A stretch of 64,000 nucleotides of DNA from an uncultured Gemmiger sp. (lineage in GTDB: Bacteria > Bacillota > Clostridia > Oscillospirales > Ruminococcaceae): assembly GCA_944388125.1 (NCBI GenBank), contig CALXHO010000004.1:16781-80780 (forward strand). Direction: 5' to 3'. Shown here piece by piece: positions 38,653 to 61,944 of this stretch. The notes under the pieces were generated by a model, which was given only the letters and a program-made list of their open reading frames with translations, had not been told where the DNA came from and did not search any database. Both the position numbers and the translations under genes were made by a program. The first letter of the stretch is position 1, and every line of letters begins with the position of its first letter.

Positions 38653-39051
38653 AGGTACGCAAAACGGCCGTCCTTACGGGTTGCGGTGCCCGCATCGGAC
38701 GGTGCCCCGTGGAAGGGGCTTGTCCTCTGCGACCGCGGCCCCTGCTCCGGCTCCCTGTTTCCGCCGCAGGCGGCGGTCGCCTGCGCAGCTTTTCGAGTCC
38801 CTTCCGAGGCATCCCGGGAACAACAAAAAAGAAGAGGTCTCACGTTTCCGTAAAACCTCTTCTTTTGGTGCGCTGGAAGGGGCCCCTCTCCCGCGCCCTT
38901 CCCGACAGTCCGCAGGACTGTCGGGCCCGGCCGGTACGCAAAACGGCCGGACGGGCTTTTCTCGTCCCTTCCGATGCATCCCGGGAACAACAAAAAAGAA
39001 GAGGTCTTACGTTTCCGTAAAACCTCTTCTTTTGGTGCGCTGGAAGGGACT
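38653..39051 (-). repeat. Tandem ~167-bp repeats carrying the tRNA-Arg 3' end and terminator
   Basis: Behind tRNA-Arg, the last ~16 bases of the tRNA (CTTCCAGCGCACCA on the minus strand) and its terminator recur. Near-identical blocks at about 38974-39051 and 38807-38881 share the tRNA tail, the AAGAAGAGGT hairpin, the spacer GTTGTTCCCGGGATGC and TCGGAAGGGAC. The tail copies start at 39033 and 38866, 167 bp apart; a degenerate third copy (GGTGCCCCGTGGAAGGGG) starts near 38700, again about 166 bp on. The middle of each unit differs but holds a hairpin (GACAGTCC-GC-AGGACTGTC in one, CCGCCGC-AG-GCGGCGG in the other). GTACGCAAAACGGCC occurs in two places. No protein is credible here. The design recalls the E. 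coli tyrT/rtT repeats. Confidence 0.75.
38991..39030 (-). terminator. Terminator of tRNA-Arg
   Basis: AGAAGAGGT and ACCTCTTCT flank an inner stem TTACG/CGTAA with a 4-base loop; on the minus strand CTTTTTTG follows. A second copy at 38824-38863 keeps the fold through a G-U pair. Confidence 0.85.
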
Positions 39052-39109
39052 CGAACCCCCGGCCTTCTGATTCGTAGTCAGACACTCTATCCAGCTGAGC
39101 TACCAGCGC
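39033..39109 (-). tRNA. tRNA-Arg (anticodon ACG)
   Basis: On the minus strand a full cloverleaf of 77 nt is seen: acceptor GCGCTGG pairing with CCAGCGC, D arm AGCTC-AGCTGGATA-GAGT, anticodon arm CTGAC-TACGAAT-like loop with ACG (complement of 39073-39075), extra loop, T arm CGGGGGTTCGAGTCCC-TT, discriminator A and an encoded CCA. ACG is deaminated to ICG and reads CGU/CGC/CGA. Confidence 0.95.
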
Positions 39110-39193: not shown

Positions 39194-39874
39194 TCAATGG
39201 GTGTTTTTTCGGGGAAACGGTTCGTCGCCTCCCCGGCGCAGATGGTCCAGCACTTCGTTGAGGTCCTCGCAGCAGGCGTCGCACAGGGAGAGGATCTCCT
39301 CGGTGGGCTGCTGCAGGTCGGGCACCATGACAGTCACGGCACCGGAAGCATGGCCCGCCCGCACACCGTTGAAACTGTCCTCCAGCACCAGGCAGTCGCT
39401 GGCAGGCAGGCCAAGATGTTCTGCCGCCACCAGGAAGATCTCCGGATCGGGTTTGGATGCCTTGGCGTCGTCGCCGCAGACGGTATCGGTAAAGTACCGG
39501 TCTGCCCCCGAAATGCGCAGGTACCGCTCAATAGTCTCATGGGAGCTGGAGCTGGCCACAATGCGGGGAATCTTCTGCTCCTCCAGGTAATCCAGCAGGG
39601 CGAACAATCCCGGTTTGGCGGGGGCACCGTTGGCCAGGGCCGTCTTGCCCTCCTCCCGCACGGCGGCCAGCAGGACGTTGGGGTCGCACTGGGGATAGTA
39701 GTGCCGCAGATGCCGCAGCATGTTCTCCCCGGCCAGGCCGCGGGCTCCCGACACAAAAGCCTCGCAGGGGGCGGGCAGACCCAGCTTTTTCAGGGCCGGG
39801 GCCCACAGTGTTGTCCAGATGCGCTCGGTGTCGAACATCAGACCGTCCATATCAAAAATAACGCCTCGGATCAT
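39194..39874 (-). CDS. HAD-superfamily phosphatase/phosphomutase (beta-phosphoglucomutase-like)
   Basis: A 226-residue haloacid-dehalogenase protein. Motif I is GVIFDMDGLMFDTE (about 4-17; nucleophile Asp and general acid Asp), motif II IVASSSSHETIERYL, motif III Lys in DDAKASKPDPEIFL, and motif IV LVLEDSFNGVRAG. The alpha-helical cap between motifs I and II makes it subclass IA. Members act on sugar phosphates, as phosphatases or beta-phosphoglucomutases; the exact substrate cannot be read. Located 85 bases upstream of tRNA-Arg on the same strand, with an AAGGAAG ribosome site. Confidence 0.9.
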   Translation of the reverse strand: MIRGVIFDMDGLMFDTERIWTTLWAPALKKLGLPAPCEAFVSGARGLAGENMLRHLRHYYPQCDPNVLLAAVREEGKTALANGAPAKPGLFALLDYLEEQKIPRIVASSSSHETIERYLRISGADRYFTDTVCGDDAKASKPDPEIFLVAAEHLGLPASDCLVLEDSFNGVRAGHASGAVTVMVPDLQQPTEEILSLCDACCEDLNEVLDHLRRGGDEPFPRKNTH

Positions 39875-40046
39875 GGCAGAAAACTTCCTTTCACGCGGGG
39901 AGATACGCTCCCCGAAACGGATTGCACTGCGCCCATGGCAGCAAGTTTTATTGTATCGGATTTGCTCTTTGATTGCAACCGGGCAGCTTGGGGAGGGGGC
40001 GTTTGACAGGCGTCAAAAATTGTTTGTAAAACTGAAAGATTTTGCC

Positions 40047-40075
40047 TTGACTTGCGGGCGGCGGGATGGTACGAT
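40047..40075 (+). promoter_or_regulatory. Promoter of the mgtE leader transcript
   Basis: TTGACT (40047-40052), 17-bp spacer, TACGAT (40070-40075). Predicted start near 40082, some 307 nt before the mgtE ATG. Confidence 0.78.
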
Positions 40076-40132
40076 AACCGTGTACGAGTATGTCCCGTCA
40101 AAAACTGACAGAGGAAAGGCAGGTGGTACGGC

Positions 40133-40282
40133 ATGGAGATTCCCGGTAGTCCAGTGAACCGATGGAACAATATTATGGCAACCGATGTTTGGGTGCATAT
40201 GCGCAGAGACAGACGGACCGGACACGCGGGCAATCCCGTGACCGGTCGGCCTGCTTGTTCAGCGCGCGTCTGCACTGCATGA
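40133..40282 (+). CDS. Putative 49-residue leader peptide of mgtE
   Basis: ATG 40133 follows AGGTGG by 6 bases and opens a 50-codon frame ending with TGA at 40280-40282. The peptide starts MEIPGSPVNRWNN, has an Arg-rich middle (MRRDRRTG) and ends CSARVCTA; it has no membrane segment. Its stop codon falls at the base of the loop of the leader terminator, and its last codons form the left arm. A ribosome that translates to the end would therefore prevent the hairpin from forming, and a stalled or absent ribosome would allow it. This is the logic of translation-coupled attenuation, as with Mg-responsive mgtL-type leaders, although the sequence is unrelated to those. Inference; translation is untested. 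Confidence 0.5.
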   Translation: MEIPGSPVNRWNNIMATDVWVHMRRDRRTGHAGNPVTGRPACSARVCTA

Positions 40283-40297
40283 CGCGCCTTTTCTTTT
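40264..40297 (+). terminator. Leader terminator (attenuator) upstream of mgtE
   Basis: GCGCGTC (40264-40270), 10-base loop, GACGCGC (40281-40287), then CTTTTCTTTT. It lies 92 bases before mgtE and after the mgtE promoter, so it can only act as an attenuator. Confidence 0.85.
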
Positions 40298-40388
40298 GCC
40301 GTTCCGGGGGCAGAGTGTCCGCCGGAGGGGCACTGTGCGGCGTATGCGCATCGGAACACCGGCTGCCCGAAAAAAGGAGGCAACCCCA

Positions 40389-41750
40389 ATGTCCGATACT
40401 GCAATCCAGACCCTCAAGAATATGCTGGCGCACCTGGATGACGCCAAAAAGTACCAGAGCCTGCGGGATGTGATGGAGACCCTCAACGCGCCGGATCTGG
40501 CCGCCGTGTTTGAGGACCTCCCCCAGGAGAAAATGCCGGTCCTTTTCCGGCTGATGCCCAAGGATCTGGCCGCCGAAGTCTTTGCGGAACTGACCCCCGA
40601 GACCCAGGAGGCTCTGATCCAGGGCCTATCTGACCGGGAGCTCAAGCTGGTCATCGACGAGCTGTTTGTGGATGACGCCACCGACCTGGTGGAGGAGATG
40701 CCCGCCGGTGTGGTCAAGCGCATTCTGGCCCAGGCGGCCCCCGATACCCGCCAGATGATCAACGAGCTGCTCAAATACCCGGAGGATTCCGCCGGCGGCG
40801 TCATGACCACCGAGTTCATGGAACTGCGCCCCGACATGACTGTCCGCCAGGCCATGGATGCCATCCGCAAAAACGGCATCGACAAGGAAACCATCAACAA
40901 CTGCTACGTCACCAACCCCGATCGCACCCTGGTGGGCGTGGTATCCCTGCGCTCCCTGGTGCTGGAGAAAAATGAAGACCGCTGCATTGATGACTTTATG
41001 GACACCAATGTGGTCAGCGTCACCACCTCCACCGACCAGGAACAGACCTCCCATCTGTTTGAAAAGTACGGCCTGCTGGCGGTGCCCGTAGTGGACGGGG
41101 AAAAGCGCCTGGTAGGCATCGTCACGGTGGACGACGCCATCTCCATCCTGCAGGATGAGGCCGACGAGGACATTGCCAAGATGTCCGCTATGGCCCCCAC
41201 CGACAAGCCGTACTTCCGGCGCAGCATGTGGGACCTGTACAAGAGCCGCGCCCCCTGGCTGCTGTTTCTGATGGTCAGCGCCACCTTCTCCAGCCTGGTC
41301 ATCCGCAGCTATGAGGATGCCCTGGCCGCCGTGACGGTGCTCACCGCCTACATCCCCATGCTGACCGATACCGGCGGCAACGCGGGCAGCCAGAGTACCT
41401 CCACCATCATCCGCGGCATCGCCCTGGGCGAGATCCGCGGCCGCGACCTGCCCCGTGTCCTGTGGCGGGAATTCCGGGTGGCCATCCTCTGCGGCGGCAC
41501 GCTGGCTGTCTGCAACTTTGTCAAGCTGCTGGTCTTTGACCACATCGCCATGCCGGTGGCGGCCGTCGTCTGCCTGACCCTGGTGCTGACGGTGCTCATC
41601 TCCCAGCTGCTGGGCACCCTGCTGCCCGTCACCGCCAACCGCATCGGCATCGACCCGGCGGTCATGGCATCCCCCCTCATCACCACCATTGTGGATACCA
41701 CCACCCTGCTGGTCTACTTCAACATTGCCCGGGTCATCCTGCATTTGTGA
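40389..41750 (+). CDS. mgtE: Magnesium transporter MgtE
   Basis: A 453-residue Mg2+ channel. The cytosolic N-domain (about 10-130) shows the MgtE repeat pattern (LPQEKMPVLFRLMPKDLAAEVF; DDATDLVEEMPAGVVKRIL). Two CBS domains follow (about 138-195 and 200-260): ELRPDMTVRQAMDAI and VVSVTTSTDQEQTSHLFEKY-type, which sense Mg2+ and close the pore. The membrane part (about 287-453) has five helices and the family hallmark TDTGGNAGSQSTSTIIRGIA. ATG 40389 is preceded by AAAAAAGGAGG. The long leader with a terminator shows that transcription into the gene is conditional, presumably on Mg2+. Confidence 0.96.
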   Translation: MSDTAIQTLKNMLAHLDDAKKYQSLRDVMETLNAPDLAAVFEDLPQEKMPVLFRLMPKDLAAEVFAELTPETQEALIQGLSDRELKLVIDELFVDDATDLVEEMPAGVVKRILAQAAPDTRQMINELLKYPEDSAGGVMTTEFMELRPDMTVRQAMDAIRKNGIDKETINNCYVTNPDRTLVGVVSLRSLVLEKNEDRCIDDFMDTNVVSVTTSTDQEQTSHLFEKYGLLAVPVVDGEKRLVGIVTVDDAISILQDEADEDIAKMSAMAPTDKPYFRRSMWDLYKSRAPWLLFLMVSATFSSLVIRSYEDALAAVTVLTAYIPMLTDTGGNAGSQSTSTIIRGIALGEIRGRDLPRVLWREFRVAILCGGTLAVCNFVKLLVFDHIAMPVAAVVCLTLVLTVLISQLLGTLLPVTANRIGIDPAVMASPLITTIVDTTTLLVYFNIARVILHL

Positions 41751-61599: not shown

Positions 61600-61944
61600 G
61601 GAAAATTCCCTCCTCATCGTCCGCCCGGTGTGGAGAAAGGGGAACGGACGATTTTTTGTGTTCCGCATGGAGTCCGGCGCCGCAATGCCGGAGCCCCAAA
61701 AGAAAAAAGGCAGAGCTGCATTTCTGCGCGCCCTGCCTGGAAAAACGAACAAACCCCCGCCCGGCCGTCTGCAGCCAATCAAAACCTACCGTATGGCAGG
61801 TGGGTGCCCTGCGGACGCTTTCACGCTCCCTTCCTCCGCCAAAGGCGGGAGGTCTGCAATCCGGCGGCCGACACCAGGCTCCCTGAATTTGATTAGTAGG
61901 ATTATATAAAGCTGCAACAAATCGAACCGCGCAGGGGTCAGAAA
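61600..61944. other. Non-coding interval upstream of the peroxiredoxin-fold gene
   Basis: About 345 bp. It holds the likely DUF1292 terminator at 61702-61738 and otherwise only a GC-rich stretch (61790-61880) without a credible gene or clear promoter. Confidence 0.45.
61702..61738 (-). terminator. Terminator downstream of the DUF1292 gene
   Basis: On the minus strand AGGCAG...CTGCCT with an inner GCGCAGAAATGCAGC stem, followed by TTTTTTCTTTT. It is about 200 bp after the DUF1292 stop. Confidence 0.7.

Follow-up and report, generated by a model that had tools for sequence, protein, structure and literature searches.

The mgtE gene of an uncultured Gemmiger sp. is preceded by a 49-codon leader open reading frame (uORF), which probably encodes a Mg2+-responsive leader peptide acting in the manner of MgtL and MgtQ. 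This judgement was reached by comparing the leader with those of related genomes. The uORF and the stem that pairs with its ribosome-binding site (P1) are well supported by that comparison; it is by inference only that we propose translation in vivo, a dependence on Mg2+, a cause in ribosome destabilization and a particular sign of the regulation. The M-box riboswitch is a known control of Mg2+ transporters in Firmicutes, and in the best reading of our data the leader peptide replaces or joins it.

Results

The mgtE leader of the window

The window, by which we mean the whole stretch of 64,000 nucleotides that was analysed, carries on its forward strand a gene (40389..41750) for a Mg2+ transporter of 453 amino acids with the Pfam domains MgtE, MgtE_N and CBS. 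Its nearest relatives with a name are Gemmiger gallinarum DSM 109015, whose MgtE is 98% identical, and other Gemmiger including G. formicilis ATCC 27749; NCBI places these relatives in Oscillospiraceae, Clostridia, Bacillota. An earlier note on this DNA had described a promoter, a Shine-Dalgarno sequence, an ATG, a 49-codon frame ending in TGA and a terminator upstream of mgtE, and the coordinates of all of these were confirmed from the sequence. The end given in that note, 40388, immediately precedes the mgtE ATG. The promoter (40047..40075) has a -35 element TTGACT (40047-40052), a 17-base spacer and a TG-extended -10 element TACGAT (40070-40075). Counted from it, the leader before mgtE is about 300 bases long. 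The uORF, MEIPGSPVNRWN... (40133..40282), runs from ATG 40133 to TGA 40280-40282 and follows the Shine-Dalgarno AGGCAGGTGGT (40117..40127), the first 8 bases of which (40117-40124) are the 5' strand of P1, called region 1 here. The conserved coding part of the uORF, with its acidic residue 2, Pro/Ser/Gly and Arg, comprises about 12 codons (40133..40168).

Further downstream on the same strand lies a conserved RNA block, GGCAACCGATGTT (40177..40189), equivalent to the GGCAGCC block of other Gemmiger leaders. It is followed by a second hairpin (40216..40247), which had been noted as ACCGG/CCGGT at about 40216-40246 and is present as GACCGG (40216-40221) and CCGGTC (40242-40247). In the subclade to which the window belongs, the 3' strand of P1 is GCCTGCTT (40249..40256). 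It stands a little 5' of the intrinsic terminator (40264..40297), which has a 7-bp stem of GCGCGTC (40264-40270) and GACGCGC (40281-40287), followed by CTTTTCTTTT (40288-40297). The uORF stop sits at the loop and 3' arm of this terminator. The element closest to mgtE (40359..40382) consists of region 3, CCGGCTGCC, and region 4, the mgtE Shine-Dalgarno GGAGGCA.

The window leader folds better than its dinucleotide shuffles, with a z of -2.77 for each of two stretches tried. A simple scan counted 3 terminators in the region, no more than the 3.1 expected; it skipped the window hairpin, because the 10-base loop is longer than the scan's loop limit of 8. No Rfam family matched the window leader at the gathering threshold. 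This agrees with the failure of the earlier note to find an M-box there, and the known riboswitch across the region that would have refuted its proposal did not turn up. When Rfam was searched at E<=10 over 39800-40600, four sub-threshold matches were obtained, all to eukaryotic or archaeal small RNAs inside mgtE and none in the leader. Five uORF peptides tried against NCBIfam and Pfam had no match.

Elsewhere in the window, a 6S RNA (RF00013, 70.3 bits) was found at 61750-61940 on the minus strand. Two 94-base direct repeats, 96% alike, occur at 38788-38881 and 38955-39048; each contains a self-complementary AAAAGAAGAGG...CCTCTTCTTTT stretch, and the pair is located next to tRNA-Arg(acg) (39033-39109).

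Conservation of the uORF within Gemmiger

The leader-mgtE segment was matched in 33 of the 35 genomes of the genus set, and loci were fetched for 30. All 30 have the promoter pattern TTGAC...TGGTA and a Shine-Dalgarno GGTGGT, then ATG, GTG or TTG, with Glu or Asp as residue 2. Loss of the ORF start, frame and stop in relatives would have spoken against the earlier note; the start and the N-terminal frame are kept in 30/30 loci. The genus consensus is [MV][DE]x-P-x-S-P...R, with conservation confined to the first 12 codons or so. Ser-Pro is present within residues 4-10 in 29/30 uORFs (the exception is L013), Arg within residues 9-13 also in 29/30 (the exception is L015), and Pro within residues 3-10 in all 14 of the 14 non-redundant peptides, among them MEIPGSP of the window. 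Insertions and deletions near the N-terminus are multiples of three, by which Pro-Ser or Ser is gained or lost; start codons are swapped, as are Glu and Asp, and Pro codons differ at the third base. Past about codon 12 the frame is free, the GGCAGCC block being in frame 2, 0 and 1 in 14, 6 and 1, respectively, of 21 genus leaders examined. Because the indels and start swaps respect the frame at the N-terminus while the frame of GGCAGCC varies, what is conserved is the peptide at the N-terminus and the RNA at the GGCAGCC block.

Strict uORF criteria were satisfied at 28/30 genus loci, compared with a shuffle mean of 1.1. The two misses are L020, with a weak Shine-Dalgarno, and L015, where the uORF runs into mgtE. 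The leader of L015 lacks the attenuator, and its uORF, VEYPSSPVNLCKTKEV..., crosses the Shine-Dalgarno and start of mgtE. In the 29 genus loci where the frame closes, the length of the uORF is 23 to 60 codons.

In 20/30 genus leaders a pattern search found a hairpin resembling a terminator, with a 3' arm that contains the mgtE Shine-Dalgarno and a T run that extends as far as the ATG; the mgtE-proximal segment of the window (40359..40382) has no T run. A separate GC-rich terminator was found instead in 7/30 genus leaders including the window; in L008 the stem is changed. The uORF stop lies inside the GC-rich terminator at 6/30 genus loci (L001-L006), and in L002 and L003 paired compensating 1-base indels hold it there. 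The ending of the ORF inside a terminator, as the earlier note had it, thus holds locally but is not a general signature. The general signature is the first 12 or so codons together with the stem masking the uORF's own ribosome-binding site, rather than the stop in the terminator.

Leader uORFs outside the genus

A model built from sequence alone (R1) and run over 396 family genomes gave only six weak matches outside the genus (E 2e-4 to 8e-3), which is about the chance level, and leaders were therefore located through mgtE. The gene was found in 111/247 family genomes (E<=1e-60) and, with E<=1e-50, in 102/197 order, 122/196 class and 94/149 phylum genomes. We examined leaders at 86 of 114 non-genus family places, of which 84 were usable, at 69 loci each of the order and the class, and at 68 of the phylum, of which 67 were usable. 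The latter three sets are samples composed of the best 28-29 each plus 40 hand-picked rows each, and the class and phylum sets include a few genomes of narrower rank.

Under strict criteria, closed uORFs led by a Shine-Dalgarno and carrying an acidic residue 2 were present in 47/84 family, 36/69 order, 39/69 class and 29/67 phylum leaders. Dinucleotide shuffles gave means of 2.8, 1.9, 2.3 and 3.1, respectively, and the reverse strand gave 0, 1, 0 and 0. Control leaders of glgB had such a uORF in 3/30 cases (shuffles 1.0). The strict uORF was absent from 37/84 family, 33/69 order, 30/69 class and 38/67 phylum leaders.

The wider peptide set was chosen for its acidic residue 2. When all Shine-Dalgarno-led uORFs were considered, an acidic residue was favoured at position 2 and rare at position 3 (49 vs. 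7 of 80 in the family); the next acidic peak was at position 4 in class (12/81) and phylum (25/83) uORFs. Peptides at the order level often start with MDAG, then Ser or Gly, and MEPAGSSS... was found in two records named Faecalibacterium. Class-level peptides include MDSSPLP, VDPGPLP and MDSDPLP, and several of them (MDPSPLP, MDSDPLP) resemble enterobacterial MgtL; MDADPSN and LESDPGS are examples from the phylum. Pro occurs within residues 3-10 in 18/43 family and 8/33 order non-redundant peptides and in 90/206 non-acidic uORFs, that is, without enrichment. The peptide motif varies and is loose across the wider set, which counts against the Mg2+-responsive leader peptide.

The uORF stop lies 5-30 bases from mgtE in 15/39 class and 11/32 phylum non-redundant leaders, and in some leaders of these two ranks (L302, L303, L304 and L229 among them) its TAA directly abuts or overlaps the mgtE Shine-Dalgarno. 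We also looked at corA leaders of the class; 30 loci were fetched and a start was obtained for 27. An acidic-2 uORF was present in 6/27, vs. 1.1 in shuffles. Four of these are alike in kind (MDTDPYPNRS, VDADPKR, VDADPRA and VDADPRT, from L417, L420, L424 and L425) and the other two are unlike them.

Pairing of the ribosome-binding sites

Helices were assessed by a permutation test, in which the best helix of the uORF ribosome-binding region with its own downstream sequence was compared with those formed with the downstream sequence of other leaders. Ten family loci with implausible uORF picks were omitted, as was any leader with a uORF Shine-Dalgarno match of <5 bases or a uORF starting less than 60 bases from mgtE, and peptides identical in their first 8 residues were counted once. 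The same exclusions held for the P1 pair types and for the folding with region 1 blocked. For P1, the pairing of regions 1 and 2 (1:2), cognate sequence was better than non-cognate at every level (z -12.7 class, -8.4 phylum, -5.2 family, -5.0 order and -3.8 genus). A control with reversed partners gave about -1 in family, order and class, -3.0 in the genus and -3.6 in the phylum; thus, the genus value is weak, and both it and the phylum value are partly compositional. The covarying stems that the earlier note had suggested looking for in relatives are supported at all levels by this test, only weakly in the genus.

A 14-base sliding window, applied from family to phylum, centred the P1 signal on -10..+8 of the uORF start. 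At -10..+3, z was -13.5 in class, -9.6 in phylum, -7.8 in order and -7.4 in family, vs. values between +1.1 and -2.5 for windows not touching the uORF start. The idea that codons 3-8 are region 1 everywhere was dropped, because the sliding window put the main signal at the uORF start. A second focus of covariation at +20..+33 was seen in family and order (z -3.9 each) and is perhaps an extra or alternative helix. It falls in uORF codons 7-11; in L119, for instance, GGCATAAAAC would pair with GTTTTGTGCC. When the best single helix joining uORF codons 2-16 to the sequence ahead of mgtE was tested over 50 leaders, p was 0.0013; eleven loci had been excluded and two more lost. Long duplexes were uninformative (mean z -0.87 over 67). 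Pair types of P1 were also tabulated position by position for 38 of the 71 class and phylum leaders; since the register was picked by the helix, this is an illustration and not a test.

The helix masking the mgtE Shine-Dalgarno (3:4) had z of -5.7 in family, -4.7 in class, -3.9 in phylum and -2.3 in order, and was borderline in the genus (p 0.05). The competing 2:3 helix had z of -6.6 in class and -3.5 in phylum; the helix test did not detect it in the narrower ranks (genus, family and order). The full set of three helices that exclude one another and end with the ribosome-binding site masked was seen at the class and phylum level only. Comparison of the sequences, then, shows the peptide-level conservation of the uORF, the 1:2 stem, the 3:4 stem in family, order, class and phylum, and the 2:3 stem in class and phylum only.

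In the window, P1 is predicted to pair AGGCAGGT (40117-40124) with GCCTGCTT (40249-40256), with a mean pair probability of 0.94 when 40082-40300 is folded and 0.69 for 40082-40395. In Gemmiger outside the window's subclade, region 2 is the GGCAGCC block, which pairs with the uORF Shine-Dalgarno, and L009, with its GTG start, has a correspondingly altered partner strand. Blocking region 1 in equilibrium folding raised the mean Shine-Dalgarno accessibility from 0.28 to 0.39 in class (35 leaders) and from 0.32 to 0.36 in the genus (12 leaders), left it unchanged in order and phylum, and lowered it in family (0.28 to 0.21). Leaders with more than 230 bases from uORF to mgtE, including that of the window, were excluded from this comparison. 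Equilibrium folding as proof of the sign of regulation was dropped; its support was too weak. The window terminator formed at 0.98-1.00 in every folding state tried.

M-box riboswitches in mgtE leaders

The M-box (RF00380) was not found by Rfam in the window nor in the 4 genus genomes among 247 searched; it was present in 22/247 family genomes, and in 8/40 class and 12/40 phylum loci. The class and phylum scan was limited to those 40 loci each, plus L229, L341 and L302 again. At 17 loci, an M-box is followed by a uORF within one mgtE leader, and in 16 of these residue 2 is acidic. They comprise L053, L054, L055, L124 and L130 (acidic residue 2) and L070 (acidic residue 5) of the family, L295, L304, L308, L317, L322 and L329 of the class, and L338, L363, L365, L374 and L229 of the phylum. 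Where an M-box and an acidic uORF occur together, the leader possibly carries a tandem of two Mg2+ sensors. Other leaders have the M-box and no such uORF (for example L056, L063, L314, L325, L342 and L349). Near one mgtE locus a THF riboswitch was found (L057, 3632-3732).

Discussion

As far as the available portions of the reports on MgtL, CorL and MgtQ go, acidic and/or proline residues early in a short uORF hinder its translation, whereupon the leader fold changes and the transporter is turned on; CorL has fewer acidic/proline residues (PMC11282234, PMC11552253, PMC6460261, PMC8092293). For the mgtE leaders, we infer that Mg2+ is probably sensed through how well ribosomes translate the uORF, without expression, Ribo-seq or Mg2+ data to hand; intrinsic destabilization of the ribosome is, also by inference, probably how the leader peptide works. 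The act of translating the uORF would matter and the peptide product would not. Its first codons, encoding the acidic residue 2 and then Pro/Gly/Ser and Arg, would be hard to translate. At low Mg2+ the ribosome would slow or fall apart on them, and with ample Mg2+ it would continue, so that its position would select the fold. A ribosome lingering at the uORF start would leave strand 1, the ribosome-binding site, unable to pair with strand 2. Strand 2 would then pair with strand 3, the mgtE Shine-Dalgarno (strand 4, which doubles as a terminator arm in most Gemmiger) would be free, and mgtE would be made. Once the ribosome is past the uORF start, 1:2 and 3:4 would form and mgtE would be off.

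In the subclade of the window, peptide and P1 are present and the switching of the extra terminator is unresolved. A ribosome completing the window uORF would sit on the terminator and disturb it, which could mean the opposite sign. Because the terminator forms at nearly full probability in all states tried, the switch of the window and even its sign are undecided. Our inferences on Mg2+ sensing and on the sign are least certain for the window, where no switch at the terminator is predicted by folding. The translation-coupled attenuator before mgtE that the earlier note proposed remains the best reading, but Mg2+ as its signal is only inferred.

The explanation that competes best with a Mg2+-responsive leader peptide, though an unlikely one, keeps the same attenuator anatomy and gives it another signal, such as translation stress, EF-P, the supply of tRNA-Pro or some other hard-to-translate trigger, with Mg2+ acting indirectly. 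A loose peptide motif would suit this explanation, and EF-P and proline codons do affect enterobacterial mgtL according to the part of that study available (PMC6460261). However, the regulated gene is a Mg2+ transporter, an acidic residue 2 is prominent among positions 2-8, Pro is missing from residues 3-10 of 25/33 order non-redundant peptides, and the M-box is also present in some leaders. It is considerably more doubtful that the leader is a metal- or ligand-binding RNA, that is, a new riboswitch, with an incidental uORF. The peptide was kept through start-codon swaps and indels of threes, the covarying stem has its centre at the uORF start codon and the window leader has no Rfam match, although a structured and covarying leader with a conserved RNA block out of the reading frame might be expected of a riboswitch. 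A functional small protein that does not act by being translated, for example a regulator of MgtE, has precedents in MgtR and MgtU, small peptides regulating Mg2+ transport in Salmonella (PMC8092293, seen in part); the change of sequence and frame after about codon 12 and the spread of lengths over the 29 closed genus uORFs make it improbable here. A chance ORF in an ordinary leader, with the terminator alone setting a basal level, fits the lack of a terminator excess in the simple scan but is already contradicted by conservation, by covariation and by the excess of uORFs over shuffles, reverse strand and glgB control, and can hardly be entertained.

A leader peptide responsive to Mg2+ thus remains our preferred reading, and it has several known counterparts, each described here from the accessible part of its report. 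The mgtE leaders resemble MgtL/mgtA of Salmonella and E. coli, and CorL/corA, in having a short uORF before a Mg2+ transporter gene. MgtL has acidic and Pro residues at the N-terminus (EPDP, PMC11282234; Pro at 3, 5, 7 and 9, PMC6460261), as do the window and genus peptides, whereas Pro is variable in the wider set. A uORF Shine-Dalgarno within a stem (stem A, PMC11552253) and alternative leader folds are shared. In contrast, the mgtE leaders are from another phylum and belong to another transporter, they would use Shine-Dalgarno masking and intrinsic terminators and not, as far as is visible, Rho, and their order-level peptides are Gly/Ser-rich. MgtQ, from the intergenic mgtB leader of Salmonella, has an N-terminus like those of the mgtE uORFs (Asp2, Pro4, Glu5) and sets 1:2 and 3:4 against 2:3, with 3:4 hiding the ribosome-binding site (PMC8092293), a choice seen in the mgtE leaders at the class and phylum level. 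It is 8 amino acids long and intergenic (PMC8092293), whereas the mgtE uORFs are longer and lie in 5' leaders with a stem covering their own start. No homology with MgtL or MgtQ has been shown; for MgtL the peptides are too short, and convergence is just as likely as kinship.

The M-box shares some mgtE leaders but is an RNA aptamer rather than a peptide. The mgtE motif of Thioalkalivibrio also lies upstream of mgtE with the Shine-Dalgarno in a stem; in the portion of the report available it is a riboswitch candidate of one genus only, with no uORF described (PMC11109978). A similar conserved small uORF with Pro near its N-terminus, uORF2, follows the mycobacterial M-box, but there, going by the part of the paper available, the M-box controls uORF2, the peptide is proposed to act as a product and the arrangement is genus-specific (PMC12810186).

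The open-access papers searched contained no account of peptides like these ahead of mgtE in Firmicutes; subscription papers are mostly outside that search and supplements were not covered by it. The main text of a microbiome survey (PMC8040213) mentions neither mgtE nor magnesium, and a candidate RNA at these leaders in its supplements cannot be excluded.

In the literature found, peptide-based Mg2+ sensing has been worked out in Salmonella and E. coli. Whether Bacillota in general sense Mg2+ through ribosome-destabilizing leader peptides that control mgtE and some corA, instead of or in tandem with the M-box, is evenly balanced at present; such peptides across the phylum would be largely unannotated because they are tiny and variable. 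From these leaders, candidate destabilizing peptides with differing amounts of acidic residues, Pro and Gly are available as a natural library. If our reading is true, it would explain the Mg2+ control of many mgtE leaders that lack an M-box, including those of the gut commensals Gemmiger and Faecalibacterium, and, given the similar design across Clostridia and beyond, the ribosome as a Mg2+ meter would be widespread or would have arisen more than once.
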